A stretch of 58,140 bases of DNA, taken from the IMG/VR virus record IMGVR_UViG_3300009103_000036, positions 1 to 58,140 of that record; one strand, 5' to 3'. The notes below the pieces were generated by a model. The model was not told where the DNA came from. It searched no databases and worked only from the letters and a program-made list of their open reading frames with translations. Below are positions 25,957 through 56,961 of this stretch, in pieces; positions within the stretch are counted from its first letter, which is position 1, and each line of letters opens with the position of its first letter. The stretch comes from a virus. The position numbers were made by a program, and so were the translations under genes.

Positions 25957-27570
25957 TTACAACAGCCACTTAAAATCGGCTGGTATCTTTTTTGAATCCC
26001 TTCTTTTATCTACTTCTTTGTCAAACATATCTTCCGAGGCTATAATGGGCACAAAAGGATTCAAATTGTCAGTTATGTGACCCGTCATATTTTTATCATC
26101 ATATTGGCTTCGAGTAAAACTCATTGCCTTTAACATTTCAGCGTTAATTTTCATAGCATCTTTATTATACTCGGGAGATGTATCATAAAGCCACATTCCA
26201 ATTGCCAAGCTAATCACCAAATCATCATTATAACCTTTCATCGCTTGAGGCTTATTCCCTTTCCAAATAAAGGTTTTTAGCTCATCATACGTCCGAGAAG
26301 AATAAATCTTGACCATTTTGTTTCTTAAAACTTCTTCAAGTTTTGTCAAAATTTGTGTTCTTGATTTTCGCTGTGTATCAAATCCTGCCTTTTCTGTGTC
26401 ATGTTCAGGAATGAAGCCACCCAAATAAACACCTTTTCTCTGTCGATAATAAAGCCTGGGATACTTTAACTCTTTTAATTTTAGTATCGTTGCATATCCA
26501 AAAGAATTATTTTCAGGAATCATTACGGCATTATTATATTTTAATCCCCATTCATTTAAAAGATCACCAAATCTATCGGGCGGTATTTTCCCCTTATACT
26601 CAGCTACAATTTCAGCAGTATTGGTATCAATAATATGAAATGTAGAAAAGTCTTTTCCATCTCCTCTCGCAACATCAGCTGAAATAATGTACTGATGTTC
26701 AGTTAATGATGTTTCCCAAATCCACACATTTCTCTCTGGGCCCTCTCTAAATTTTGGTGACTTAATTAAATTGTTGACCCAGGCAATATCTTGATTAGAT
26801 AAAAAGGTGTCACCAGATGTGGCAAAATCGCACATCAGCTCTTGTGCAATCTGCCTTGGAGACATATTTTTTGTCTCTTTCTCAAACCACGATTCATCTC
26901 TCTCTGGATGAACAGACCATGGCAAGTTAATTGCATTAAACTCGTTTTGACCTTGTTCTGCATCTGTATAAAGTTTGTGATACTGTCCACCAACACCGTT
27001 TGGTGTAGATAAAATTACAGCTCGACCACCTGTGGACAGTGTGGGATATAGGCCCATCCAAAGCTCATCAAAGTTACGAACGAATGCAGCCTCATCAACA
27101 ATCAAAAGAGACAGAGCTTCTGAGCGTCCGGCATCATCAGAAGTAGGAATTGCTTTTATTGTTGAGCCATGATCAAATTCAATCATCTGCTTGTTGTTGG
27201 CCACCACATTTGGTAGAACTAACCACTTTGGAAGATTCTTAATTAAAACCTTAACCTTTTTAATAAAATTTTGTGCAACAGCAAGCTTTGTTGCAATGAT
27301 AAGAACATTTTTATCTCTTTGATATAATACCAACCAAGTTGCATACGCAGCTGTTAGTGTTGACATTCCCAGCTGTCGTGCCTTTACAACAACATTAAAC
27401 CTATTATCTAAAAAATCTTGGACACAGTCATTTTGAAAATCGTAGGTATTAAACGGAATAAGACCTCTAGTGGGATGCTGAATCTTAACATATTTGTTAA
27501 AGAAGTACTGCGGATTCTTTCCGCACTTAATAATCTCTTCTACCTGTCGCTTTTTCGACAAAGATGACAT
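25957..27570 (-). CDS. 17: Terminase large subunit (gp17 family)
   Basis: 537 residues from the ATG at 27570, one base after the previous stop. A longer frame to 27660 would run over that gene. The ATPase uses a deviant P-loop, VVKARQLGMST (61-71), with the Lys before the loop (K63), as in many phage terminases. Walker B is LLIVDEAAF (155-163), and the coupling motif is ILSTPN (186-191). The C-terminal RNase-H-like nuclease has ISADVARGDGKDFSTFHIID as its first acidic motif and GYNDDLVISLAIG near the end. It cuts and packages DNA into the prohead through the portal. GGAAG lies before the start. It precedes the portal gene by about 40 bases. Confidence 0.95.
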   Translation of the reverse strand: MSSLSKKRQVEEIIKCGKNPQYFFNKYVKIQHPTRGLIPFNTYDFQNDCVQDFLDNRFNVVVKARQLGMSTLTAAYATWLVLYQRDKNVLIIATKLAVAQNFIKKVKVLIKNLPKWLVLPNVVANNKQMIEFDHGSTIKAIPTSDDAGRSEALSLLIVDEAAFVRNFDELWMGLYPTLSTGGRAVILSTPNGVGGQYHKLYTDAEQGQNEFNAINLPWSVHPERDESWFEKETKNMSPRQIAQELMCDFATSGDTFLSNQDIAWVNNLIKSPKFREGPERNVWIWETSLTEHQYIISADVARGDGKDFSTFHIIDTNTAEIVAEYKGKIPPDRFGDLLNEWGLKYNNAVMIPENNSFGYATILKLKELKYPRLYYRQRKGVYLGGFIPEHDTEKAGFDTQRKSRTQILTKLEEVLRNKMVKIYSSRTYDELKTFIWKGNKPQAMKGYNDDLVISLAIGMWLYDTSPEYNKDAMKINAEMLKAMSFTRSQYDDKNMTGHITDNLNPFVPIIASEDMFDKEVDKRRDSKKIPADFKWLL

Positions 27571-27571
27571 T

Positions 27572-27964
27572 TCAAGAAACTTCCAAAATTGACTTTCGAC
27601 GATAATACGCTGTTTTTCTCGGATTGTGTGGAGATGTATTAATAATCTCAATACTATCATTAGTGCTTAACTCTTTAACCTTTAAAGAACGACCAGCATT
27701 TTCTTTAAACTTAGACTTCATTCTCTTAATAGCATCTTTAGTCACTTGAACAGATTCATTTTCAAATGCAGCTTTTTGTTCTCTTAAGCCAAATTCTGAT
27801 GCAAAAGTCACAACACACGTATAGTCAACTGTCACTCGATTTTCTCCAACCAGTCTGCACTTAACGATATGCGTTGGTGATCTATTAGTTGCATTTGTAG
27901 TAGATCTTCCCCACGTATCATCAAATATTTGTCCCAAAACATTGGTTTCTTGAATTGATAGCAT
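27572..27964 (-). CDS. Conserved-looking small protein upstream of terminase (unknown)
   Basis: 130 residues. It begins MLSIQETNVLGQIFDDTWGR, continues as strands (HIVKCRLVGENRVTVDYTCV) and a basic helix (QVTKDAIKRMKSKFKENAGR), and ends with NPRKTAYYRRKSIL. It is adjacent to and just ahead of gp17, where T4 encodes gp16 (small terminase). It lacks the long coiled coil of gp16, so I do not call it gp16. The strand-helix layout and the packing with terminase suggest a DNA- or head-linked role. No motif with known catalysis. Confidence 0.7.
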   Translation of the reverse strand: MLSIQETNVLGQIFDDTWGRSTTNATNRSPTHIVKCRLVGENRVTVDYTCVVTFASEFGLREQKAAFENESVQVTKDAIKRMKSKFKENAGRSLKVKELSTNDSIEIINTSPHNPRKTAYYRRKSILEVS

Positions 27965-29002: not shown

Positions 29003-32000
29003 CTAGCTTTTGACGTGAGAGTCCTTGCCTCTGCGATTGATATCAATGACATTATCAACCACATCTTTAACAGCATCTACGTGAGAAATAATTAAAATAT
29101 TTTTAAACCATCGCTTTAGTGATTCTAACAGTCGATTACATGCTTCAACATTCATCTCATCAAGCGTTCCAAAGCCCTCATCAATAACTAGCATATTAGT
29201 CTTGGGCAGTGAAGAAATATTAATCAAAGCAACTCTAATCGCTAGGGAAGAAAGCATCTTCTCCATTCCAGACGCAAGCTCTATTACTCTCCTTGAATCA
29301 CCGTAATTAATATAGATATCCATCGCATTAGAGTTTGCATCAGCTTCAAGCTCAACAGTAAAACCAACAGTATTTTGTAGAATCTTTGAAATCTCAGCAT
29401 TGATAACTGGAAGCTGTGTCATGATAATCTGTAAAGGTATTCCTTTTTTAGAAACAGCCTGCAAAAATAAATTATAAACCTTCCACTTCGTCTTAAGCTC
29501 TAAAAATTTATTCTTTTCCTGTCTAGTCATCTTTAGATCACTTTCAAGTTTTCCAACTGTCTGTGCAGTAGAAATTCTTTGTGCATCCAACTCATTAATC
29601 TCACTGTTCAATAAGATCATTTCATTCTTAATCATCTGAACATTGTCATCAATATTTTCGCTAGTAACTCTTGCCTGCATGTCTCTTAAACCAGCTTTTG
29701 CATCTACGGTTTGGCTCTTTAAAGTCGTCAATCTTGATTGAAGGTTATGTTGATGCAGTCCCTCTTCTGACAAAAGAATTCTCTGATCAGACTCTTTTTT
29801 TAAGATATCATCATATCTTCGAACCTTTTCTCCTAGCTTTTCTTTTTGAAGATTTTCTATTGCTCTCTGCGCCGCGCCTGTCTCATCTAGCAGCTTTAAT
29901 ACGGACTCTTTTTGATCAGATACTAAACCCTTGTTCTCATGCGAATCTTTAATAAATCGACATGTTGGAAATGAATCACCACAAGGAATTCCCTCTAACT
30001 TTTTAATTGATCGTTCTTGATTTTTAAGAAGCGCTAGCTCTCTCTCATAATCTGATCTTATCTTAATTAAAAATTTCTCAAGACTCTGTTGTGATTGAAT
30101 CTTTTCTCGAAGCTCTTCAATGGGAAATTGGGACTTGAATATTTCAATTTTTTTAATCTTATCCCCAATCTCATCTAATTTTTTCTTTGACTTCTTAATT
30201 GACTTATTAGTTTCTTTAACATTTTCAACAAGATTTTCTAATGTTTCTCGTTGTCGAATAACGTCATCAGGTGTAATCACATCATCATTAGTGTGCTTGG
30301 CAATCTCTAGCTGTAAATTGTGATAGTGAAGGCGCTTTTGATTAATGTCACGCTCGTACTTTTTAATCTCATCCCTTTTCTCAGCTGTTTTATTTTTTAA
30401 ATCAAAAATAATTACATCCCACTCTCTATCAGGAACATTTGACATCTGGGCTTTAATCGCTGCTGATTCATCCTTGGCAAGTTGAGACATTTTTTCAAAT
30501 ACATTTAGATCTAAAAACTTTGTTAAAATTAGCTTTCTAGAAGTCGCACGTTCTTTTATAAACGTGTTCATTTCTCCTTGTGAGGCAAGCGAAGTCATTA
30601 AAAAATCTTCAGACGTTCCAATCTTTCTTCTAACAACTTTTTCTGTCTCTCTTCTTTGCTCTTCAGTAAGATCTCTAATGATCTCACCATTCTCGTTGAT
30701 TTGAAAAAAGTTTAAGTGAGTTGTGGCATTAACCTGGCCTCGACGATTTTCGTGTTTTACCGATTGCCTTTCAAGCCGATAATTTTTTCCATTGATCATT
30801 AAATCAACTGCGGCCTTGCAATGACCTTTTCTTGTGTTAATAATGTGAAGATTTTTAATCGGACCCCTATCTGTAGTATTGTAAAGACAATACATTATAG
30901 TTCCAACAATAGAAGATTTTCCGCATCTATTTGGCCCAAATATTCCAGTAATTCCTCTTAGTGTATTAAAATCAATTTGATTATTTTTTCCAAAAGCAAA
31001 CGTATTGTCAAATGATACATTCTTAATAGTCCACTTAGTATTTCTAGAAATATCATCAGACTTTGAGGTTTGAGACAAATATAATCTAATTAACTCTTCT
31101 AGCTTAGTCCATTCCTCGTCACTCAAACTAGCATTCTCATAATAGCTTTTAAAAAGACTTACATGAGTATTAAAATCTCTTAAATCTTCATTGAATGCAC
31201 CTGTTCGATCAACTTTGATTTTTCCCGCATCAAGATCATCATCAATTTTATAAACAATCTCAGATGCATTTTTTATGTGTTTTAATTCAGAGTGAAGATG
31301 AATAATATCAGATTGAGGAATTGCTGTATTTGATCTGACTCTAAATCTTGAACCATCAGGTATTTTATTGGCTGTAGATATTGTCTTCTTAACAGTTCCT
31401 TTCCAATCTATAGTAACAAACGGCTTGTAGTGAGGAATCTGATGAAACTCTACATTAAAGTTATCTTTTCCTCGAATGTCCCAGCAGAGAAATCCTTTTC
31501 CGGGTGATTCTCCATAATTTTGTTGTATTGAAGAACCACAGTAAGCAATCGTTTTATCTTCATTTAAAAATTGACAAGTATGAATATCACCCAAGAGAGC
31601 AAAATCAAACTTATCAAAAAAATCAACTGTTGCCTCTCCTTCAATTGACCAGTCAGAATCTGTTTTTGAACCTAAGACACCTCCGTGAAACAGCGCAATA
31701 TTCACTTCATTGTCAACTGGAAGAACAGACTCCCAACCTAACTCATCAAAACAAGAAAAAACACACCAATTAATTCCAGGAATCCCTGTCGGATAGGTTC
31801 CTGACTGTTTATAGAGGTGTAACCGATCATTATTGAGAGCGGTAATAATTGGGCTTATTGCATCTTGTCTGTGCTTATTTAAAATGAGTCCATCATGATT
31901 TCCAAGAATAATATGAGTTGGGGCAATTTCAGCTAAACCTGTAAACCACCAGTTGAGAATATCAATTAACTCAGGTGAAATTCCCTGAGTTTTAGAATGC

Positions 32001-32152
32001 ACAATATCCCCACCGATATAAATCAAATCGGGTCTTAGTCGTCTTGCTATCTCAAAGAATTCAGTAAATGATTCTTTGTACTCATCGTGGCGTGTTAAGC
32101 CCCTAAAATGAATGTCAGCAAGGTGTAAAATCCTAGCGCTTTTTTTGATCAT
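29003..32152 (-). CDS. Mre11-Rad50 (gp47-gp46) fusion: nuclease plus SMC-type ATPase in one chain
   Basis: 1049 residues. The first ~340 carry all Mre11/SbcD phosphoesterase motifs: DIH (13-15), GGDIVH (47-52), GNHD (84-87), FHGG (155-158) and GDIH (188-191). The rest is Rad50/SbcC: Walker A GPNRCGKSS (406-414), Q-loop SLASQGEM, a long coiled coil, a zinc-hook-like turn with C724 and C731, signature LASGMEKM (959-966), Walker B MLVIDEGFGTLDE (987-999) and an ISH switch (1022-1024). The hook is C-x6-C rather than the usual CxxC. In T4 and in bacteria the two halves are separate genes (47 and 46; sbcD and sbcC). The complex resects DNA ends for recombination-dependent replication. No stop or internal start interrupts the joint at about residues 340-370. 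Confidence 0.93.
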   Translation of the reverse strand: MIKKSARILHLADIHFRGLTRHDEYKESFTEFFEIARRLRPDLIYIGGDIVHSKTQGISPELIDILNWWFTGLAEIAPTHIILGNHDGLILNKHRQDAISPIITALNNDRLHLYKQSGTYPTGIPGINWCVFSCFDELGWESVLPVDNEVNIALFHGGVLGSKTDSDWSIEGEATVDFFDKFDFALLGDIHTCQFLNEDKTIAYCGSSIQQNYGESPGKGFLCWDIRGKDNFNVEFHQIPHYKPFVTIDWKGTVKKTISTANKIPDGSRFRVRSNTAIPQSDIIHLHSELKHIKNASEIVYKIDDDLDAGKIKVDRTGAFNEDLRDFNTHVSLFKSYYENASLSDEEWTKLEELIRLYLSQTSKSDDISRNTKWTIKNVSFDNTFAFGKNNQIDFNTLRGITGIFGPNRCGKSSIVGTIMYCLYNTTDRGPIKNLHIINTRKGHCKAAVDLMINGKNYRLERQSVKHENRRGQVNATTHLNFFQINENGEIIRDLTEEQRRETEKVVRRKIGTSEDFLMTSLASQGEMNTFIKERATSRKLILTKFLDLNVFEKMSQLAKDESAAIKAQMSNVPDREWDVIIFDLKNKTAEKRDEIKKYERDINQKRLHYHNLQLEIAKHTNDDVITPDDVIRQRETLENLVENVKETNKSIKKSKKKLDEIGDKIKKIEIFKSQFPIEELREKIQSQQSLEKFLIKIRSDYERELALLKNQERSIKKLEGIPCGDSFPTCRFIKDSHENKGLVSDQKESVLKLLDETGAAQRAIENLQKEKLGEKVRRYDDILKKESDQRILLSEEGLHQHNLQSRLTTLKSQTVDAKAGLRDMQARVTSENIDDNVQMIKNEMILLNSEINELDAQRISTAQTVGKLESDLKMTRQEKNKFLELKTKWKVYNLFLQAVSKKGIPLQIIMTQLPVINAEISKILQNTVGFTVELEADANSNAMDIYINYGDSRRVIELASGMEKMLSSLAIRVALINISSLPKTNMLVIDEGFGTLDEMNVEACNRLLESLKRWFKNILIISHVDAVKDVVDNVIDINRRGKDSHVKS

Positions 32153-33119: not shown

Positions 33120-34094
33120 TTAAATTATAGTTCCAGTATTTATCGAATCGATTAAATGGTAGATTCGATCTGTTGCCTTCCATGCGATGGCTTGATCACG
33201 CTTTTTTAAAAAATCAGATTTAGACATTTCCCCCACGTCAGAAAACCTGCCCAAGTCTAAAATTCTTGATTCAACTCCGTAACTGCGAAGTAGTTTGGCA
33301 TATTTTTGTGTTTTATCCTTCATGTCAGAATCTAATGCAAGTAAAACAGGAGTTTGATTGCCAATAATTTCTTTAAAAATCAGGGTCTTTTCTGAAAGCT
33401 GCGACCCTAAAATACATGTAGCATTATCATTACATTTAGTTAAATCAAAAGGTCCTTCAACTAAAGTTATCTCTTTACTCCAATCAACATTGATTTCATT
33501 AAAAATAATATCAGCGCTTTTAACCCTTGCATTAATATACTTTCTATTGACATCAGAGTCAATTGATCTTGCAGTAAAATAATTAAGCCTTCCATGCTTA
33601 TTAAAAGAAGGAATAATGACACGCCTTCGATATCTACCGCTTTTACACGTTCCAAGCTTAAAATACCACATATCTCTATCAGTTAATCCTCTAGATTTGA
33701 TATACCGAATACAGTCTCTAACATCAGGATCCTGATGTCTCATACCTGCCAAAAAGACAAAATCCTTTGGAAGGTGAATCTCAGTATCAACTTCAGCCAT
33801 CTCATTAGTTTCACTAAAATATTTTCCAATCTTTTTTGATTTAAATTTCTTTTCATATTCGCCAATAGACGATGGAAAATATTTTTTAAGTATAGGAAAA
33901 AGAGATTTTGACTTAAAGCCGCATACCCAACAATGACACTGATCTGTCTTTGCATTTATTGACAGTTTTTTCTTTTGGTCGCTTCCTCCCGAACAAGCAG
34001 GACAGTTAACAGCAACATTAATTCCATCACGAGAAATAATGCAGGTTCCAAATGTTTTTTGGATAAAATTTATTTTTTCACGCAGCGTATACAT
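33120..34094 (-). CDS. 61: DNA primase, DnaG type (gp61-like)
   Basis: 324 residues (T4 gp61: 342). N-terminal zinc ribbon: CPAC (C31, C34) and CHCWVCG (C55, C58). Toprim motifs: LVEGPFD (E213, D217) and LALDSD (252-257, D255 and D257). The region between them (KSRGLTDRDMWYFKLGTCKS, VIIPSFNKHGRLNYFTARS) is the usual DnaG RNA-polymerase fold. It makes RNA primers for lagging-strand synthesis with the phage helicase, which is not in this window. It lies 11 bases after the RuvC-like stop and 19 bases before the ligase-like start, so the cassette is one operon. Confidence 0.88.
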   Translation of the reverse strand: MYTLREKINFIQKTFGTCIISRDGINVAVNCPACSGGSDQKKKLSINAKTDQCHCWVCGFKSKSLFPILKKYFPSSIGEYEKKFKSKKIGKYFSETNEMAEVDTEIHLPKDFVFLAGMRHQDPDVRDCIRYIKSRGLTDRDMWYFKLGTCKSGRYRRRVIIPSFNKHGRLNYFTARSIDSDVNRKYINARVKSADIIFNEINVDWSKEITLVEGPFDLTKCNDNATCILGSQLSEKTLIFKEIIGNQTPVLLALDSDMKDKTQKYAKLLRSYGVESRILDLGRFSDVGEMSKSDFLKKRDQAIAWKATDRIYHLIDSINTGTII

Positions 34095-34105: not shown

Positions 34106-34657
34106 CTAACTCATTAATATTCCTGCTCTGGCAATTACAAAAGCATCAGCCATATCATAACAAGCAGGATTTAAAATTGTCTGTCCTTTTCTTGGACCTG
34201 ACTTTAATATTTTAACGGGCCACTGATGGTCTGTATTAGAAATCTCTTCAGAAACCCAACTTAAAACCTGTTCTTTAGTTGAATCATCAGATTTTCTATC
34301 GATCTTTAAACCAACAGACCTTCTAGCAGCATTTACATTTAGCATCTGGGGTTTGATATCAGTCGCCTGATAAGCAACATAAGATACTATTCCGTTAAAT
34401 CTGGCTAGCGTTGACAAAGTTTTTGCAGAAGAAAAACCCGTTCTAAAAGACTGAAGATTTTCCTCAATAAAAATACTATGTATGTCATGTTTGACATAAA
34501 GTTCAGAGATAACATTAGAGACCTCCTGAGCCTTGCTGAATAGATCCCGAAGCTTATCCAACCGTATATATCCTATGTCAATTAGACTACCCTCAGAGTT
34601 TAACACAGACCATCCCGTACATGATGTTGATACGTCAAGTCCAAGAATTAGTGACAT
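34106..34657 (-). CDS. RuvC-like Holliday junction resolvase
   Basis: 183 residues, with the RuvC fold's acidic residues in place: LGLDVSTSCTGWSV (D8), FIEENLQ (E65/E66) and near the end CYDMADAFVIARAG (D168, D171). The first strand and the final helix are the strongest matches. It would cut branched DNA before packaging or during recombination. T4 uses a different fold for this job (gp49, endonuclease VII), so this gene may be its functional substitute. Its ATG overlaps the stop of the upstream structural gene (TAATG), giving translational coupling to a virion gene. Confidence 0.85.
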   Translation of the reverse strand: MSLILGLDVSTSCTGWSVLNSEGSLIDIGYIRLDKLRDLFSKAQEVSNVISELYVKHDIHSIFIEENLQSFRTGFSSAKTLSTLARFNGIVSYVAYQATDIKPQMLNVNAARRSVGLKIDRKSDDSTKEQVLSWVSEEISNTDHQWPVKILKSGPRKGQTILNPACYDMADAFVIARAGILMS

Positions 34658-37497
34658 TAAAAATCAATCTTTGTCTTAAAAAGATATTTATCAGAAGCTC
34701 TTTTTAAAATTGGCTGTGCTAATGATGTTCTTGCTATAATATTAAAGTTATCGTCGTGAAAGTTAATTCCAGTAATGTAAACAAACTCACTATCAGAATC
34801 ATTTGCGTCTAATGTGGCTGAAACAATCTGATATGCTGGGTTTGAAGAAGAATTTATCATTCCCTTCGGACAAGGAACGTTAACAGTCATGACATGAATA
34901 TCTTGCTCGCCTTGAAAGCTGATCTCAAACTGATCTTTTCCAAATCTTGGGAGATGAGGTGTTTTAAGTAATACAACCCCTTCACTGTAAAAGACGTTTC
35001 CAATATTATTCCATTTTGCCTGTTCAGATAAGGTATCAGCCCGATAAATCATTCCTCCCCCATCATCTTTTAAGATAATCGAAACATGCCCATTGGATCC
35101 TGTCACGGCTGGATCTTTTATCGTCAAGGTCCCAGGCTTAATTCTCTTTCCGTAATACATGTTAGAGATGTCAAAAAATGTAATCTCATTTGATGAGTTG
35201 TCACCAGTTCTCTGAAAGACAGATAACACATCTCCCGATGCCACACCTGGAGATTCGGGAGATCCTCCCATCACTGATCCAGCAAGAGAACCCGAGTCTT
35301 GAGTGATTGACTTTCTAAACGAACCTGTCGGAATTAGGTCATTCAACGTAATAAAGCTAAGATCCAGTGCACCATTATCTGTGACAAACTTAGACATCAT
35401 TGAACCTGTTGTGGGAATTAGGGTCTTAGTTCCTGATATTAACAAATCAAAGTTTGGAGAGAACTTTCCGTTGTCACAGGGTAAAAGAAGTAAGTTTCTC
35501 GCTCGAACAGAACCTGAAGCGTAGAGATACTCATTTGTCTCTAAGTTCTCACTGGTCGTGTAGGTGATCATCGAAGCTGTTAACTGATATAATCTTGGAT
35601 ACTCTTTTGTCACAAAATCTCGAAGGAAATTTTCTGTATTAATCAGATGACCACCTGTTCCAAACGATAGTGACACATTGAATGGATCGTCTGTAGTGGA
35701 TGTGGTTGTCTGAAAGGGAGAGATTGGCACCTCTCTTGATCTACTCTCCTTCACAAAGAAAGGCGGCAGGTAAAAGAGCATTCCCTTAGTGTCATCAGGA
35801 CCCTCAACTGAGGAAGATAACACCTGGTCATCTGTTCGATAGTGATCAAAGATCTTCAACTCATGTAGTTCAGCATTTAAAGGATGATTAATCAAACTAT
35901 CTACTGCTCCACCCCCACTGTCTGTCGGATCAGATGTTGCTGTTCCTATTGAAGAGAGTCCCTCGTTTCCCGCAACAGTTGTATTAAAAAACTGCTCAAT
36001 AAGATTGCTGCCTGCATTAAAACCATCATAATAATTTCCAATAAATAGCGCTTGGGGATCTGCAATCCTTGGCGAATCTGACGAATAATTTGGTTGCGCG
36101 ATTGTCGTCAGTGGTAAAATAAATGTTCCCCTCTCAACACCGTCAATCATAAATGATCCAGTTCCTTGATTAATCTGACTTGACCCCCATCTTATCGCAA
36201 CATGATGCCAGTGATTCCTCTTTAGGGCATTATCATCAGATAAGAAAACATAGTTGTAAGGTGCTGACCCTGTCTCATGAGATCGATAGCGCTTAGTTCC
36301 TGTATTAATGTTCGACGTATAGGCAATTTGTGAAGGAGGTAGATCAGCACTATGAGTTACCTGTAAGATCAGTCTAAAACCATCAGGGCGGCCGTTAATA
36401 TCAACACTGCTTCCCGTGGTTAGAGAAATAGCGTATGTGGATGAAAGATGAAAGATTCCGCCGGGCCGATAAGACTTTCCTGCCGCCTCAGTGGTGTATC
36501 TAGGGTTGATAAAAAAGTCAAATGTAAATGATCCAGTGGGTGTGTAAGATCCCACTCCGGTGCTTCCAGTATAGGCATTAGGATAGATCAGCGCTGAAGA
36601 GGTTGGAATCAGGGTTCCAGTAAAAAAGTTAAGGGAATTATAGTTTGTGTAGCCATAATCCATTCCAGAGTAGACAGATCGATAATACGGCATCATCACC
36701 TTACGAACTGAGCTTTTAATTCCTGAACTCCTAGTATAAGTGAATGACGGTTCAAATCGTATAATCTCTAACTTCTTCTCCTTCTTAGCTGAAACAGACT
36801 GACTGTGTACCATTCGGATGTAGTCATTCATTGGACCGATAAAGCTACCAATATCTGATCCCCCACCAAAATGTTCTGTTGCCACGAGACCGGCGTCTGT
36901 AATTGTGGTAACAGAATTAAAACCAGATGACTGTGAAATGAATGTATTACCCAGGGCACCGGGTCGCTGTTGCGTCAGTGTGACAAGATAACCGTTTCCA
37001 TCAATCTCAGCATCAATCTCAACGTTTGATGCTCTTAAAGCTGTCACAAAAGCTGTCGCAGCTTGGGCCGCAGAACCTCCAGCTGCGACAACCGGAATAC
37101 TCCCATCTCGATAGCTACTGTCGGTATCCCACTCAAAACTGCCCGTGATAGAAATTCCGTCATCATCGGGCGTGGAATAAATTGTCACGCCCTCTTGATC
37201 GGGAACAGAGCCACCAAAAGAAATTTTTACTGTACCAGGGGTAGCCTTGAGGGCTGCTGATCTAGCCGATAGACGATATATTTCCAGATCCTGATCATTA
37301 GCGACTGAATCCTGAAAAGCACCTAGAGGTCTCGGTTCTTTCTCAATTTTGCTCCTTCGAGCAAAGAGCGGGACAGATCCGGTGACACCTGCAACCATGA
37401 CAAGCGACTCATTTGAAGCTGATGTGAACGTCCGCTTAGGATACGTGACGATCGTGAACTGCTCAAAGTGATCTTTTCCTAGTTTGATAAACGCCAT
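34657..37497 (-). CDS. Large tail/baseplate structural protein with LamG-like domain
   Basis: 946 residues, beginning MAFIKLGKDHFEQFTIVTYP. Residues ~95-215 resemble a module I know from phage virion proteins, with an AAxAAxAFxxAL helix and a Q-x-x-P-G-x-x-G-N-T turn ending in HFGGGSD. A LamG/concanavalin-like domain follows (about 320-560), with FTFDFFINPRY, HWHHVAIRWG, SFMIDG and LHELKIFDHYR. The C-terminus ends VYITGINFHDDNFNIIARTS and ...FKTKIDF, a module shared with the next gene upstream. Likely a tail or baseplate component that binds surface carbohydrate, by domain content. It is a virion gene directly ahead of the DNA cassette. Confidence 0.72.
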   Translation of the reverse strand: MAFIKLGKDHFEQFTIVTYPKRTFTSASNESLVMVAGVTGSVPLFARRSKIEKEPRPLGAFQDSVANDQDLEIYRLSARSAALKATPGTVKISFGGSVPDQEGVTIYSTPDDDGISITGSFEWDTDSSYRDGSIPVVAAGGSAAQAATAFVTALRASNVEIDAEIDGNGYLVTLTQQRPGALGNTFISQSSGFNSVTTITDAGLVATEHFGGGSDIGSFIGPMNDYIRMVHSQSVSAKKEKKLEIIRFEPSFTYTRSSGIKSSVRKVMMPYYRSVYSGMDYGYTNYNSLNFFTGTLIPTSSALIYPNAYTGSTGVGSYTPTGSFTFDFFINPRYTTEAAGKSYRPGGIFHLSSTYAISLTTGSSVDINGRPDGFRLILQVTHSADLPPSQIAYTSNINTGTKRYRSHETGSAPYNYVFLSDDNALKRNHWHHVAIRWGSSQINQGTGSFMIDGVERGTFILPLTTIAQPNYSSDSPRIADPQALFIGNYYDGFNAGSNLIEQFFNTTVAGNEGLSSIGTATSDPTDSGGGAVDSLINHPLNAELHELKIFDHYRTDDQVLSSSVEGPDDTKGMLFYLPPFFVKESRSREVPISPFQTTTSTTDDPFNVSLSFGTGGHLINTENFLRDFVTKEYPRLYQLTASMITYTTSENLETNEYLYASGSVRARNLLLLPCDNGKFSPNFDLLISGTKTLIPTTGSMMSKFVTDNGALDLSFITLNDLIPTGSFRKSITQDSGSLAGSVMGGSPESPGVASGDVLSVFQRTGDNSSNEITFFDISNMYYGKRIKPGTLTIKDPAVTGSNGHVSIILKDDGGGMIYRADTLSEQAKWNNIGNVFYSEGVVLLKTPHLPRFGKDQFEISFQGEQDIHVMTVNVPCPKGMINSSSNPAYQIVSATLDANDSDSEFVYITGINFHDDNFNIIARTSLAQPILKRASDKYLFKTKIDF

Positions 37498-50484: not shown

Positions 50485-53400
50485 CTACACCATGTCCAGA
50501 TCAGTTAAAATTAGTCGATTCATCTCAGACAGGTCAATTTCGCCTCGATTCTTTAACTCATTTTCATTATCAACGTCAAAGAAAGGCATCGATGATGTAG
50601 CATAAATATTTTGATTTGAAGACCAAGTGGTTCTGGGATCAACCTTTCGACCTAACGCATCAACAAATCTCACAGAAACTGGAGAAGGATCTCGCCCTCT
50701 TCTTCTTGGTCCTAAAAATTTTCCTGGTCCAATTTCAAATCGAGCATCTTGACGCTGCTCCAACATGTCTCTGAATTGTCCATAATGATCATGTCTGAAG
50801 ATAGCTTTTGGACTTGTCTCGATCGCATTTAATAATCCGTACTTAAATCCACGAACATGAACTAATTGTGCATTTCCAATTCTGGTGCATGATCCAGAAA
50901 CTGAAGTAAACTTTGTGACCATGCACTCTGAATACATCAAGGGCATTCCAGATGGGCCATCTCCAATCCCAAATAGTGCCATCTTCATCTCATTGACAGA
51001 GGGCAACCCTTTTCGAGAATGTTGGTTTACAACTGTCGCATCTATCGGAGACAGCATATGTCCGCGGGGAGGATCAGTAGAATCGCTGCCGGCGGATTTC
51101 CATTTATTGTCGTTGGCGTGACTGTTAAAGTGCCACCCCTTGGTGATTAAAAGATAGACAATGTTCTGCCATGTGCTCGGTTCATATCTCCCTAATCTTG
51201 TTGCATAGCGATTGCCTGAGTGAGCTGAACTATACCCCTGTTGATTGCTTGTGGAGAAAGGCTTGGGAGGAATCCTATGAGGATTCTCAGCTCTTGCAGC
51301 ATCGCTCACCTGAATCGCAACTGAGGTTATTTCTCGGCGCCTGGGGCCCGTTGTCCCTGTTAGAACGAAAAATCCCTTTGTTCTTATCCGTCTCGGAATT
51401 CCCTCATACTTTGGCTCAAAAGGAAACTCATGAGGCCACTCGGTGTGCAACCTCTTGTCATTTTGACCAAAACCATGATCCTGCAAAGATCCCGAGCCAA
51501 AAAGGAAGAAATACGTTCCGTATGCATATTTCGAGGAGCATTCCCGACTATCAAGAGTTCTCTTTCCGTTCCATTGACTGGTAAAATAATTACGTACGCT
51601 GGTCGTGGATGATGCGCTATCATTAAACCAATTGCAAGTTCCGTCTGCTTTCCTGTGCCATCTAAAAAGCTGATGACCTGACCTTTTCCAGATCTTAACC
51701 GGATCAGGAACAACAGAGTCGTAATAGATCCTCTGATTTTCAACTAGTTGCACGCCTCTTAGAAGCCCCTGCGTTCTACTGGGTTCCATTCCCAACCAGG
51801 CTCCGTTATTAGATCGATTTGATCCAGATGAAGACGCATCAGCAACTGGAATGCCGTGTGATCGACGTGAGTGACCCCACGCATGCTGAACTGGATTAAA
51901 GTTTACTCCATGCAATGCGCTTCCTTGTCTTCCACGGGTGGTGGACGTATATGTCATTCCCGAAAGCTCTTTTTCTGTCATTGATCCGGTAAAATAATTG
52001 TCGATATAAGATCCGCTATAAGCTTCCCTTGCTTCAATTTGATACTGATCAACAACAGGTTCATAGATTATCTCGTGCAAGGCGGGTGAGGTTAGATTTT
52101 GATTTAACGTGTCGTGATGCTCCTTGCCTGCACGAACTAGAGAGCCATAAAATGTCACTGAGGCATGCTCAGGAACAATTTTTAAATATGATCCAGATAG
52201 GTGTCCCCACGATGTAAACAACCCTTTAATTCCAGGTGGGTTTGCAATACCTGCATCAATTCCCAGGATTAGATCATCTTCTGGAAAGAGAAGATATGGT
52301 GAGGTTGTTGAAGCGTTATCAGAGGTGTGAAACATAAACCATGAAACGTAACCTGCGTGCTCATGATCAGACAGAATCTTTCTCTCTGTCCCAACACCAG
52401 TAGGTCTTGTAGCACGAGAATCTGCCCTATAAAGATATCTGGGCAGCATTCCCTCATGACCATCTTTTCCCCCTCCGAGATTAGCAAATTGCTTTGTACC
52501 TGCATTCCAAATAGCAGCAGACGTCGATCCATCATAACCCGCAGCGCCAGCAGAGCCAGTAAACCAAGAACCCCAAGCATGTGACCCAGAGATCGCTGAA
52601 TGAGTGGATCTGGCTTCCCTGCTGGCCAATGTTAAAACTCTATGATCGATGTAATTGTTTCTAAATCCTCGCTGTGTCCAAGAGACATAATTCATATTTC
52701 TATTGAATCTATTTTGAAGACCTCCATTCGCAGCAAGAAGTTCTGGATGAGATCCATTTAGTGAAGAGAAACTATCTGATGTGGTTCCTCCAGGCCAATA
52801 GTGTAAGACAGGGCGCACCATTCCTATCGGCTCGTCTGAGTTCCACATGTGATGAATGCCCTTTAGGCCCTCTGTTGCCACACCCGGTTCAAGCTCAAGC
52901 CTCAAGGTTCCCGTAAACTCTCCGACTAGACGATTAGTATAGGACGATGAAAGGGCAAAGTCGTGAGAAAATGCAGGTGAGTGGATAGGGTGAAAATTTG
53001 TCTCCTGATAGCGAAACGCCCCTGATGAAATTGGAATTGTTGAGTTGTAAAAGCATGCTGATCCAGAGAAAACAATAAATCTGTCACTATTTAGGGCACC
53101 GTGCATGCTATTTCTAATATCAAAACTTTTTGATCCAGAGACAGCAGGTGTGTGTGCGGGATCTCTCTCTTTTACACCCCCGGGAATATTTGGTGACCTC
53201 TGGCGATAGGCAAAAAAGACGTAATTATCCAGGTCAATTCCAGGCATCTCAATTGCTGTAAAGACGTCTTCTGACATTCCCCCAGCTCGCAATTCAGCCT
53301 CTCGAGGATATGGCCCGGGATCAAGAATTTTTCTTGCCATCACCGGAATATCAATTACAACCTTCTCCAGCAAGAAAGGTTGTCGTATGTGATTAGATAG

Positions 53401-56400
53401 CGAAAGACACTGACTTGAGGTGGCATGATACTTTGGTCCAAAAGGTGCAAAACTAGAGACTGTGGGTGACCCAATAAGATGATAACCCATGCTTTTTAAT
53501 GTTATTGCAGGTCTTTCCTCATGCATTGCCGCCCCATAAAGTCCGCCAGTTTGACCTCGTTTTAGGTCTCTAGCTGTTCCTGGAGAAGGTGTAAACTGCA
53601 TTGGATACACATTAGTCCCAGAGGTAGGACTTGTCGGCTTACAAAATCGAATGCTATAGTCATAATACGATGGATTTCCTGAACCTGGTCTGGATCTAAA
53701 ATCAGCTGCGGTTAAAAACGAAGATTTAGAAACCCAGGGTCGATTGCTTCCAATCCACTCCCACTGTTTTAGGTCAAAGTTAAAATAACAAAATCCTGTT
53801 CTTGCCCGCTCCCATCGACGGTTTGGTGCACCCGTTCTTGGGATCATATACTCAGATGTGGGTCTATCCACAACCTCAGTTCCTGCAGGCAGTGCACCAG
53901 ATAAGAAGGGGCCCCCCGAAGGAAGTCGGGTAATAAGGTGGTGTTTTCTTGCCGTAATGTCAACGGTAAATGAGGTCTTACTTGATAGTGGGCTTGAAAA
54001 ACCATCTAAGATATCTTGCTGTGTTCCAGTTAAATAAAATCCCTTTGTAAGTCCCATAACTGTGCCGTCTTTAAAGGGAGAATAATCCTCCCCCTTAGTG
54101 AAGCTAATTCGACTATCTCCTATGCCCTTAACGATAGAACCGAATGTTCTAATTGAAGATGTTGAGACCTTAGCAAGCGTTGAGTGCTCAGGTGGCAGTC
54201 CCTGTGGAAATGAGGACTCCTGATAATAGGGCGTCGCCTTGGCGTTTTTAACAATTGCAAGCACCTCGCCCTTATCTAAAACCCTATTCCAAATTGCTAC
54301 GTCATCTAACCTACCACTAAAGTGACCCGGTCCGATCCCGGTGTTGCCATTACCTGTGGCCTCCGGATTGGTTCCGTCACGACTGCCGATAAATATGTGA
54401 TTTTCTGTACTCCCAACCATAGATGAATACACACCTCGCTTGGTTCCATAAGGGCCAGTGCCGCCGGCAGATGTTCCACCGACATTGTAAGATGGCGTCC
54501 AAGACCCATATCCTAGCTTAGTGTGCCAAATTGAAGAGGCGCGGCCGTCGATCTGAACAAGCTGGGGAATTGGAGCTGTGTTGCCTTGAAATTCACCGCT
54601 GTGGAGATACTTATTCTCAGACACACGGATCCCATTCTTATAGATTCTCATCGATCTTAGCGCGGGTCCTCCCGTGCCGTCGTAGGTCACACACCAGTGG
54701 TCCCACTTAAGCGTGGATCGATCAGCTGTATCACTAGCCGAACCCGTATAGATACGGCCATATGTCCTTGGGAAATCCGGGGCCTCTGCAGAATATTCAG
54801 GTGGTAGCTCAACTGCAAGCCCAATCGATCCTGTGTTTATCTCATCAATTAGGTAAAATTGAAACTGCATTCTTGGATGATCTACAGATGTATTCCAACC
54901 ACCACCACCCACTCTTCTAAAACGACAATACCACTCACCGTGGGTATCAGTTTTCACATAGGCAGCCGGTGATGTATTTCCATCAGCCTTCATATCTCTT
55001 GTCTTGGAGATCACGTACCAGTTATCAATACGGTTTAATGAGGACGCTTCACCAAACCAATTCCAGCCATCTTCAAGCTTGGCCCAAAAAGCAATAGAAA
55101 ACGGATGATCTTTCCTGTCCCCTGAAGCATATCTTGCATGGTTTCCCTCACCGTCCTTTGTTAGGAGGGAGGCTGAGGTGAAGGAAAAAGTTCCACTTCT
55201 AAAACTTTGGGTCTCTGAGGCCCTATAAGCACACGGAAAAATGCCCTGATTACCACTAAAGGGGTGACCCCAGTCACCAATCTCCACAAATGAGTATAAC
55301 GATGATACCCCAAAGTCCCCGGGTGCATTTCTAGACCAACGTTTATTAAGGTCTTCTTCATTAACAAACTTAAGAATGTTATTAGAAACTTTAGTAAATT
55401 GAGATGATGATACAAAGAGAGGGGACCACTTGACCTTTGTGCTAGAATCACCGAGGCCCGTTGTCCAAAACTGATATTTTCCGTGTGCCTTTCCTTTATC
55501 ATGCCAAACACCTGCTGATGGTTCTTGACCTGACTTCCAGTTTCCACCTTTTGACCAATCTTTAACCAGCCATGTTTTGGGAGTAGAACTGGCGACGGTA
55601 TCAAGATGCCCTAAGTTCCAAGTAGAAATACTTCCAGAAATATTTAAAGACTCAACATTGGGTTCCTCAAATTTCCACCATCCAACAAGATTGTCAGCAC
55701 CCCTATAATTACCAAAATTTCGATTAAGCTCTCCTGGGAAAACATCATTATGTTTTCTAAAGAGAACAGTTTTTTGATCATTAAAACTAGTGGAATACTT
55801 TCCTGTTCTAGAATCACCTGTTCGAATAACTGTAGGATAAGAGCCTGTCTTAGAGTCAATAATTCTTTGCTCCACCCTGGGTGGCAGCTCTTGAAGAAAT
55901 CCTGTCTCATTAGCCTGAACACCAAAACGAGCATCATATAGGGCTCTGATCTCGTTTGCTGTCATAATCGATCCGGTTCTATTTTGCTGTGGTTTTGCCA
56001 CATACTCCTCGTGTGTGCCGTGGAGCCACATAGCAAAGTCAGCGATATATCCGAAAAAATATCTTCCTCGATTGGCATCGTTCTGACTAGGAAGATGAAC
56101 CCTGCCGTCGTTTCCAAGAACAAGCCTATTGGCGGATCGATGTGTCCTGTGAAATGAACCACCGACGGTTCTAGTTCCGGTATCATCATTTCCGTTAAGG
56201 TATAGACTCAATCCGTTCTTGATATTTGAACCATTCCAATCTGGTGCAGTTCCTACTTTTCTTCCGTGAAGATCAGGGGGTCGATATGTGACTGCTAGAT
56301 GATACCACTTACCTGCAGAAACTGACGTGGAGCTTTGAACCTTAATTTTATCATCATTGCTTCCAGAGAGAAACATGGTAAAATTAATTTGTCCGGTTGA

Positions 56401-56961
56401 CAAAACAGTGCAGTCATACTCAAATGTCCCTTTCGTCTCAGACTGTTTTCCAAATAAACGATTAGAATTGTTTCCTTGAAGCTTCTCAATAAAGAACCAC
56501 AGGGCAAATGTAAAGGGTGAATCATAAACTCCGTAAGCATTGTCAGGGGGCCCTTGATAAAGAGAAAGCTTTCTATTTTCTGGAAATCTAATAACATGGC
56601 CTTTCCATCTGGCTTCTACATCATACGGATTGTTAAAGAAAACTGACTTTACGCCTAAGCTAGGGAGAAAAGGCGTCTTATCGCTTGTCTCAATGGCCCC
56701 TGTAGCATAAGACTCGCTGATCATTCCAAACGAGGTATATACCCCATGAGAAGGGGTCATTAATAAAGTTCCTGACGCCGACTGAGTCAGTACTGGTCTT
56801 ATTCCTCGGGTTCCGGGAAAGGCAGTTAAATCAGTTGCCCGCTCATCTTCAAATCGAAGATGTAACACACAGTCCTTTGACTTATGATATCCGTATCCGC
56901 CTCGGGACGTAATAAAATCAACAGTATAATCTGGTGCCTGTGGCTTACCTTTCTTTTTCAT
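50485..56961 (-). CDS. Giant LamG-domain adhesin/tail protein
   Basis: 2158 residues, the largest gene here. Two LamG/concanavalin-like domains are visible: one at about 148-345 (FTFALWFFIEKL, GKWYHLAVTYRPP, FGYIADFAMWLHG) and one at about 618-905 (FSIAFWAKLEDG, WDHWCVTYDG, IFIGSRDG, LDDVAIWNRVLDKGE). A third possible LamG start, GWWKFEEP, is near residue 427. After residue 905 I see mainly Gly/Ser/Thr/Tyr-rich beta structure and HSPAF-type turns, without a family I can name. LamG domains bind glycans or proteins, so this may be a long surface-exposed tail fibre or a baseplate-linked adhesin. The gene is one frame without breaks. It lies one base downstream of the next gene. Confidence 0.78.
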   Translation of the reverse strand: MKKKGKPQAPDYTVDFITSRGGYGYHKSKDCVLHLRFEDERATDLTAFPGTRGIRPVLTQSASGTLLMTPSHGVYTSFGMISESYATGAIETSDKTPFLPSLGVKSVFFNNPYDVEARWKGHVIRFPENRKLSLYQGPPDNAYGVYDSPFTFALWFFIEKLQGNNSNRLFGKQSETKGTFEYDCTVLSTGQINFTMFLSGSNDDKIKVQSSTSVSAGKWYHLAVTYRPPDLHGRKVGTAPDWNGSNIKNGLSLYLNGNDDTGTRTVGGSFHRTHRSANRLVLGNDGRVHLPSQNDANRGRYFFGYIADFAMWLHGTHEEYVAKPQQNRTGSIMTANEIRALYDARFGVQANETGFLQELPPRVEQRIIDSKTGSYPTVIRTGDSRTGKYSTSFNDQKTVLFRKHNDVFPGELNRNFGNYRGADNLVGWWKFEEPNVESLNISGSISTWNLGHLDTVASSTPKTWLVKDWSKGGNWKSGQEPSAGVWHDKGKAHGKYQFWTTGLGDSSTKVKWSPLFVSSSQFTKVSNNILKFVNEEDLNKRWSRNAPGDFGVSSLYSFVEIGDWGHPFSGNQGIFPCAYRASETQSFRSGTFSFTSASLLTKDGEGNHARYASGDRKDHPFSIAFWAKLEDGWNWFGEASSLNRIDNWYVISKTRDMKADGNTSPAAYVKTDTHGEWYCRFRRVGGGGWNTSVDHPRMQFQFYLIDEINTGSIGLAVELPPEYSAEAPDFPRTYGRIYTGSASDTADRSTLKWDHWCVTYDGTGGPALRSMRIYKNGIRVSENKYLHSGEFQGNTAPIPQLVQIDGRASSIWHTKLGYGSWTPSYNVGGTSAGGTGPYGTKRGVYSSMVGSTENHIFIGSRDGTNPEATGNGNTGIGPGHFSGRLDDVAIWNRVLDKGEVLAIVKNAKATPYYQESSFPQGLPPEHSTLAKVSTSSIRTFGSIVKGIGDSRISFTKGEDYSPFKDGTVMGLTKGFYLTGTQQDILDGFSSPLSSKTSFTVDITARKHHLITRLPSGGPFLSGALPAGTEVVDRPTSEYMIPRTGAPNRRWERARTGFCYFNFDLKQWEWIGSNRPWVSKSSFLTAADFRSRPGSGNPSYYDYSIRFCKPTSPTSGTNVYPMQFTPSPGTARDLKRGQTGGLYGAAMHEERPAITLKSMGYHLIGSPTVSSFAPFGPKYHATSSQCLSLSNHIRQPFLLEKVVIDIPVMARKILDPGPYPREAELRAGGMSEDVFTAIEMPGIDLDNYVFFAYRQRSPNIPGGVKERDPAHTPAVSGSKSFDIRNSMHGALNSDRFIVFSGSACFYNSTIPISSGAFRYQETNFHPIHSPAFSHDFALSSSYTNRLVGEFTGTLRLELEPGVATEGLKGIHHMWNSDEPIGMVRPVLHYWPGGTTSDSFSSLNGSHPELLAANGGLQNRFNRNMNYVSWTQRGFRNNYIDHRVLTLASREARSTHSAISGSHAWGSWFTGSAGAAGYDGSTSAAIWNAGTKQFANLGGGKDGHEGMLPRYLYRADSRATRPTGVGTERKILSDHEHAGYVSWFMFHTSDNASTTSPYLLFPEDDLILGIDAGIANPPGIKGLFTSWGHLSGSYLKIVPEHASVTFYGSLVRAGKEHHDTLNQNLTSPALHEIIYEPVVDQYQIEAREAYSGSYIDNYFTGSMTEKELSGMTYTSTTRGRQGSALHGVNFNPVQHAWGHSRRSHGIPVADASSSGSNRSNNGAWLGMEPSRTQGLLRGVQLVENQRIYYDSVVPDPVKIWKRSGHQLFRWHRKADGTCNWFNDSASSTTSVRNYFTSQWNGKRTLDSRECSSKYAYGTYFFLFGSGSLQDHGFGQNDKRLHTEWPHEFPFEPKYEGIPRRIRTKGFFVLTGTTGPRRREITSVAIQVSDAARAENPHRIPPKPFSTSNQQGYSSAHSGNRYATRLGRYEPSTWQNIVYLLITKGWHFNSHANDNKWKSAGSDSTDPPRGHMLSPIDATVVNQHSRKGLPSVNEMKMALFGIGDGPSGMPLMYSECMVTKFTSVSGSCTRIGNAQLVHVRGFKYGLLNAIETSPKAIFRHDHYGQFRDMLEQRQDARFEIGPGKFLGPRRRGRDPSPVSVRFVDALGRKVDPRTTWSSNQNIYATSSMPFFDVDNENELKNRGEIDLSEMNRLILTDLDMV

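Follow-up and report, generated by a model that had tools for sequence, protein, structure and literature searches.

Domain Organization of the Fusion Gene

The window, i.e. the whole stretch of 58,140 nucleotides that was analysed, carries on its minus strand an open reading frame running from position 32152 to position 29003 over 1049 codons without interruption, which according to Pfam, PHROG and structure matches encodes a fusion of Mre11 and Rad50 (SbcD and SbcC; 29003..32152). All parts of the protein are therefore read from the minus strand: residues 1-303 (31244..32152) comprise the Mre11/SbcD nuclease with its capping domain, residues 327-365 (31058..31174) a helix-loop-helix (HLH) that is the probable Rad50-binding motif of Mre11, residues 366-372 (31037..31057) a linker, and residues 373-1049 (29006..31036) the Rad50/SbcC ATPase with its coiled coil, the apex of which holds the hook C724-x6-C731 (CGDSFPTC; 29960..29983). 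Pfam Metallophos (PF00149) covers residues 7-192, AAA_23 residues 383-606 and SMC_N residues 389-1040, each above its curated cut-off, while PHROG 77, an SbcC-like subunit, matches residues 277-1047.

An AlphaFold2 monomer model, computed with 37 natural sequences (mean pLDDT 82.8, pTM 0.52), agrees with this division. Model residues 5-303 match SbcD of S. aureus (7dog; Z 23.4, rmsd 2.9, 274 aligned) and residues 1-303 match SbcD of E. coli (4lty; Z 23.3, 287 aligned), so that the N-terminal part has a calcineurin-like phosphoesterase fold with a capping domain by both Pfam and structure. Residues 374-1049 match E. coli SbcC (Z 29.6), and the alignment begins at residue 1 of SbcC, which corresponds to residue 374 of the model. 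The HLH is predicted as two helices (327-337 and 345-365) and is assigned by its position, with no separate structure match behind the label. Between the two halves of the ATPase head the model places an antiparallel coiled coil, whose helices, interrupted by short breaks, span 550-721 and 735-925 and flank an apex loop that contains C724 and C731.

Active-Site and ATPase Motifs

The nuclease motifs D13-I-H15, G48-D49-I-V-H52, G84-N-H-D87, H156-G157 and G188-D-I-H191 are followed by the ATPase motifs, namely Walker A (G406-S414), Q525, the signature S961-G962-M-E964, Walker B with D991/E992, D998 and H1024. The sequence-only reading had listed these motifs, apart from D998, as lying in order, and they were located as such in the window protein; like the hook cysteines, they vary little or not at all across the aligned family. 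Among the 96 distinct members described below, the metal ligands D13, H15, D49, N85, H86, H156, D189 and H191 are invariant where aligned, and the ABC head is complete, with invariant Walker A, Q-loop, signature, Walker B, D-loop and H-switch; the signature reads SGME, not SGGE. One metal-binding position departs from the canonical set: the equivalent of His206 of P. furiosus Mre11 (numbering taken from PMC3175470) is Asp189 in 96/96 members, and the other positions are canonical. The same change, together with a histidine for the third aspartate of GDxxD, was described for Mimivirus R555 (PMC3175470). In the alignment two D12 proteins of T5-like phages also read GDLH, with an aspartate at the position of Asp189. 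Aspartate is able to bind metal, and judged from these alignments Asp189 looks like a recurrent variant rather than a sign of inactivation, although activity or metal preference could differ from those of proteins with His206.

Conservation and Reality of the Fusion

A scan of IMG/VR yielded 47 relatives of the fusion, and a profile of Mre11 only, which is not biased toward fused genes, gave at least 595; the 80 best of these were retained. Among 134 loci with a forward match, 119, from many metagenomes, contain the full uninterrupted fusion ORF, while the remaining ones are truncated at contig ends or show one of two other kinds of break, described below. A break at the joint of Mre11 and Rad50 was seen in 0 of these 134 loci, and no relative split at the joint occurred among the best 80 of the at least 595 loci. 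The 119 loci encode 96 distinct proteins including that of the window, most of them 41-57% identical to it. The one-chain Mre11-Rad50 fusion is thus real and widely conserved, as the sequence-only reading had held for the single 1049-residue chain on the strength of the open frame.

Two ways in which the single chain could be misleading were considered. Since the source is a metagenomic virus record, the fusion might be an artefact of assembly or sequencing, in which a stop or frameshift between two adjacent ordinary genes was lost; nothing else speaks for this. The error at the joint that had been named as a possible refutation is excluded by the 119 loci in which the fusion frame is likewise open, and the isolated phages Mel-JY01 and pT24 are also fused, while the linker measures 5-7 residues in all 96 distinct members. 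Because independent homologues carry the same open fusion, this explanation is refuted, and its probability is practically nil. Secondly, an internal start near the joint could give rise to a separate Rad50, so that the ratio of the two activities would not be 1:1. In the window gene TTG codons stand in frame at residues 343 and 359, and some ATG lies within residues 335-392 in 42/96 members. However, an ATG with a Shine-Dalgarno sequence is present at residues 335-392 in 0/96 members, and any start codon with a Shine-Dalgarno sequence at the joint in only 4/96, at positions that are not conserved; for comparison, such a sequence precedes 207 of 1550 (13%) internal ATGs elsewhere and 51/96 true starts. 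A second start in the joint is therefore very improbable.

Two diverged phages show a break of a different kind. In loci L025 (1844-2873) and L050 (4580-5652) approximately 1 kb of sequence in a different frame breaks into the fusion gene directly behind the GDIH motif, and in both the first half ends up with a similar added tail (ELENYLDDGW and ELEKYLNSGW, respectively). The ORF of the insert contains CxxC pairs resembling zinc fingers, and that of L050 has a TnsA-like endonuclease N-terminal domain (E 5.8e-6). Searched against Rfam, the inserts matched neither a group I intron nor any other RNA up to E 0.5. The insert looks like a homing-endonuclease insertion, by which the gene would be split unless the insert is removed by splicing.

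A bacterial home of the fusion was also considered and rejected: only three relatives were found in GTDB, in MAGs of Halobacteriovorax, Methylococcaceae and Gemmatimonadetes, and they look like phage contigs. The relatives binned in the Halobacteriovorax and Methylococcaceae MAGs (L136 and L137) are close ones, and L136 seems to be a phage contig binned into a bacterial genome, matching virus record L033.

The Joint Between Nuclease and ATPase

The region from residue 301 to residue 372 keeps a length of 68-74 residues across the 96 aligned members. The sequence-only reading had placed the linker at about residues 340-370, a stretch that model and alignment assign mostly to the second helix of the HLH, so that the linker has to be moved to approximately residues 366-372. 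In the T. maritima complex the C-terminus of Mre11 lies ~28 Å from the N-terminus of Rad50, a distance that requires 9-12 residues when extended (PMC3175470). With 5-7 residues the linker of the fusion is slightly under this published estimate, but the gap from residue 365 to residue 373 can span up to ~30 Å when fully extended. With the HLH kept, as judged from the predicted helices at 327-365, the joint is compatible with the T. maritima arrangement. Comparison of the maximal reach of ~30 Å with the measured ~28 Å indicates that assembly within one chain (in cis) would be geometrically possible, at the tight end; a domain-swapped arrangement of two chains (in trans) is also possible.

The C-x6-C Hook

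The window protein lacks the canonical C-x2-C zinc hook and has C-x6-C instead. This spacing, which the sequence-only reading had pointed out as unusual, is kept in nearly all members of the clade: by motif search a C-x6-C apex, typically PCGDxFPxCKFI, is present in 107/116 members, and seven of the other nine are C-x6-C by eye with an extra cysteine nearby (e.g. CDCFEHLPTC, or CSCAAHAPNC in L130). The exceptions are L134 with C-x2-C and L096 with a longer insert. In the alignment C731 is invariant and C724 is present in 95/96 rows. Hooks of the C-x2-C type were found in T4, two T5-like phages, two herelleviruses, Mel-JY01, pT24, YerA41 and the phages of 735 and 484 kb, while the hook of Moorella phage MTATph1 is C-x7-C. 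Since other fused phages also have C-x2-C, the wide spacing is a trait of the clade and not of the fusion itself.

No description of such a spacing was found in a search of open-access papers by their abstracts, and the hook looks like the less familiar feature of the fusion and its most interesting point. It is conceivable, albeit doubtful, that the marine T4-like lineage runs end processing only as an obligate one-chain Mre11-Rad50 with a C-x6-C apex, where zinc may be bound in a different geometry or dimerisation may proceed otherwise, altering the tethering of DNA ends. The apex is a natural test of how far hook geometry matters, and the compact single chain of 1049 residues would lend itself to structural and single-molecule studies of Mre11-Rad50.

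Genomic Context

The window is a probable genome fragment. Its portal, prohead protease, major head protein, tail sheath and terminase find their matches among T4-type PHROGs, which marks the source as a T4-like myovirus, a large marine tailed phage. The genes around the fusion lie on the same strand and their order, primase–RuvC–fusion–terminase, is conserved: a DNA primase (33120..34094, minus strand; phrog_47) is found upstream in 110/119 loci, a RuvC-like Holliday junction resolvase (34106..34657, minus strand; phrog_159) upstream in 99/119, and the terminase large subunit (25957..27660, minus strand; phrog_2) downstream in 115/119 with a mean identity of 60%. In 15 virus records of larger relatives (123-267 kb) a search for Rad50-type AAA_23 domains gave exactly one match, the fusion, in 11; in one record a further, weak match stayed below the cut-off, and in three nothing exceeded the threshold, so that no second Rad50 over the cut-off was found in any of the 15. 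The single match in 11/15 records suggests that the fusion is the only Mre11-Rad50 that these phages carry.

Directly upstream of the resolvase lies a gene for a 946-aa protein with a laminin-G/concanavalin-like domain (34657-37497), present in 94/119 loci, an odd neighbour for replication genes and perhaps a virion or adhesion protein. The largest ORF of the window encodes 2158 aa (50485-56961). Between the fusion and the next gene a search for structured RNA gave folding no better than shuffles and no Rfam match. Flavobacterium phage immuto, close by its terminase, was considered as a relative, and the three genes beside its primase are unrelated to the fusion.

Proposed Function

Taken together, we place at approximately 0.9 the probability that a T4-like marine myovirus encodes with this gene a DNA-end-processing machine in which SbcD and SbcC are fused. 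The assembly in cis, the dimerisation, the activity and the role of this machine are what we infer, as follows. The N-terminal half would act as a metal-dependent nuclease, and the HLH, tethered by 5-7 residues beside the first strand of the Rad50 head, would most likely sit on the coiled-coil root of the same chain. Two chains would form an M2R2 head that is closed by ATP and opened by hydrolysis, whereupon the nuclease cuts, while the coiled coils of the two chains would meet at the C-x6-C apex. By analogy with gp46/gp47 of T4, the fusion is likely an obligate 1:1 unit that dimerises and acts in end resection, so that phage DNA ends would be processed for recombination-dependent replication, and perhaps host DNA would be degraded. 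That the fusion would remove subunit exchange, as the sequence-only reading proposed, is plausible.

A fused ATPase-nuclease could also have left DNA-end repair and serve as a phage weapon or as counter-defence, directed against host DNA or rival genomes. According to its annotation, gp46/gp47 of T4 also acts in host DNA degradation, and the SMC-type defence heads of JetABC and Lamassu appear among the lower-ranked Foldseek matches. The best structural matches, however, are SbcC/SbcD and Rad50, the neighbours are primase, RuvC-like resolvase and terminase, and the fusion is apparently the sole Rad50 of the relatives, all of which makes a role as a weapon unlikely.

Comparison With Known Systems

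The sequence-only reading had implied that the fusion is novel, which does not hold. Fusions of Mre11 and Rad50 were described in 2011 by Yoshida, Claverie and Ogata in Mimivirus, Bacillus phage 0305phi8-36, plasmids, bacteria and eukaryotes, and abundant marine homologues were proposed to belong to viruses, many of them probably phages (PMC3175470). The fusion as such has thus been known since then; it occurs in isolated phages, and among viral proteins the best structural matches are for the most part fusions, the top ones being long proteins of giant viruses and Tenacibaculum phages that align over most of the chain. The 2011 work could confirm this in only a few long reads, whereas approximately 100 full-length fusions in phage contexts are now available, whose linker is fixed, whose synteny is conserved and beside which no separate Rad50 was seen.

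Mimivirus R555, compared here by its published description, likewise has Mre11 first and then Rad50, keeps the HLH region with a short linker, and shares both the aspartate for His206 and GDxxH for GDxxD (PMC3175470), but it is much longer (1351 aa versus 1049 aa), and the C-x6-C hook belongs to the window protein. The fusion of Microcystis phage Mel-JY01 (WWT39521.1, 1066 aa) has the same architecture and also a primase directly upstream, yet is only ~29% identical to the window protein and has a C-x2-C hook. That of Tenacibaculum phage pT24 (YP_009876626.1, 1310 aa) has the same architecture as well, while its alignment to the window protein is limited to the nuclease (27%) and its hook is C-x2-C. 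These two proteins are annotated as "AAA domain containing protein" and "metallo-phosphoesterase".

A tree of 27 proteins sets 20 fused rows, comprising members of the clade, Mel-JY01, pT24 and the phages of 735 and 484 kb, apart from the phages with separate genes, and in it Yersinia phage YerA41 represents a second, apparently independent fusion. A single fusion event is only partly settled by this tree, in which several branches are very long. In YerA41 (L053, 4926-7963) Mre11 is fused to the front half of Rad50, while the rear ATPase half is a separate ORF of 185 aa with an overlap of four bases, a different division of the same machine.

T4 gp47/gp46 have the same two domains, the same gene order and the same probable role, but are encoded separately, with two small genes lying between their own, and differ in the CPTC hook of gp46 and in GHFH where the fusion has GDIH. 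SbcD/SbcC of E. coli share both folds, but are two proteins, and the coiled coil of SbcC is much longer. The coiled coil of the fusion, which had been called short, is short only relative to cellular Rad50 (~676 aa for the Rad50 part versus 1048 aa for the SbcC chain in solved PDB entries), and is longer than that of T4 (560 aa for gp46).
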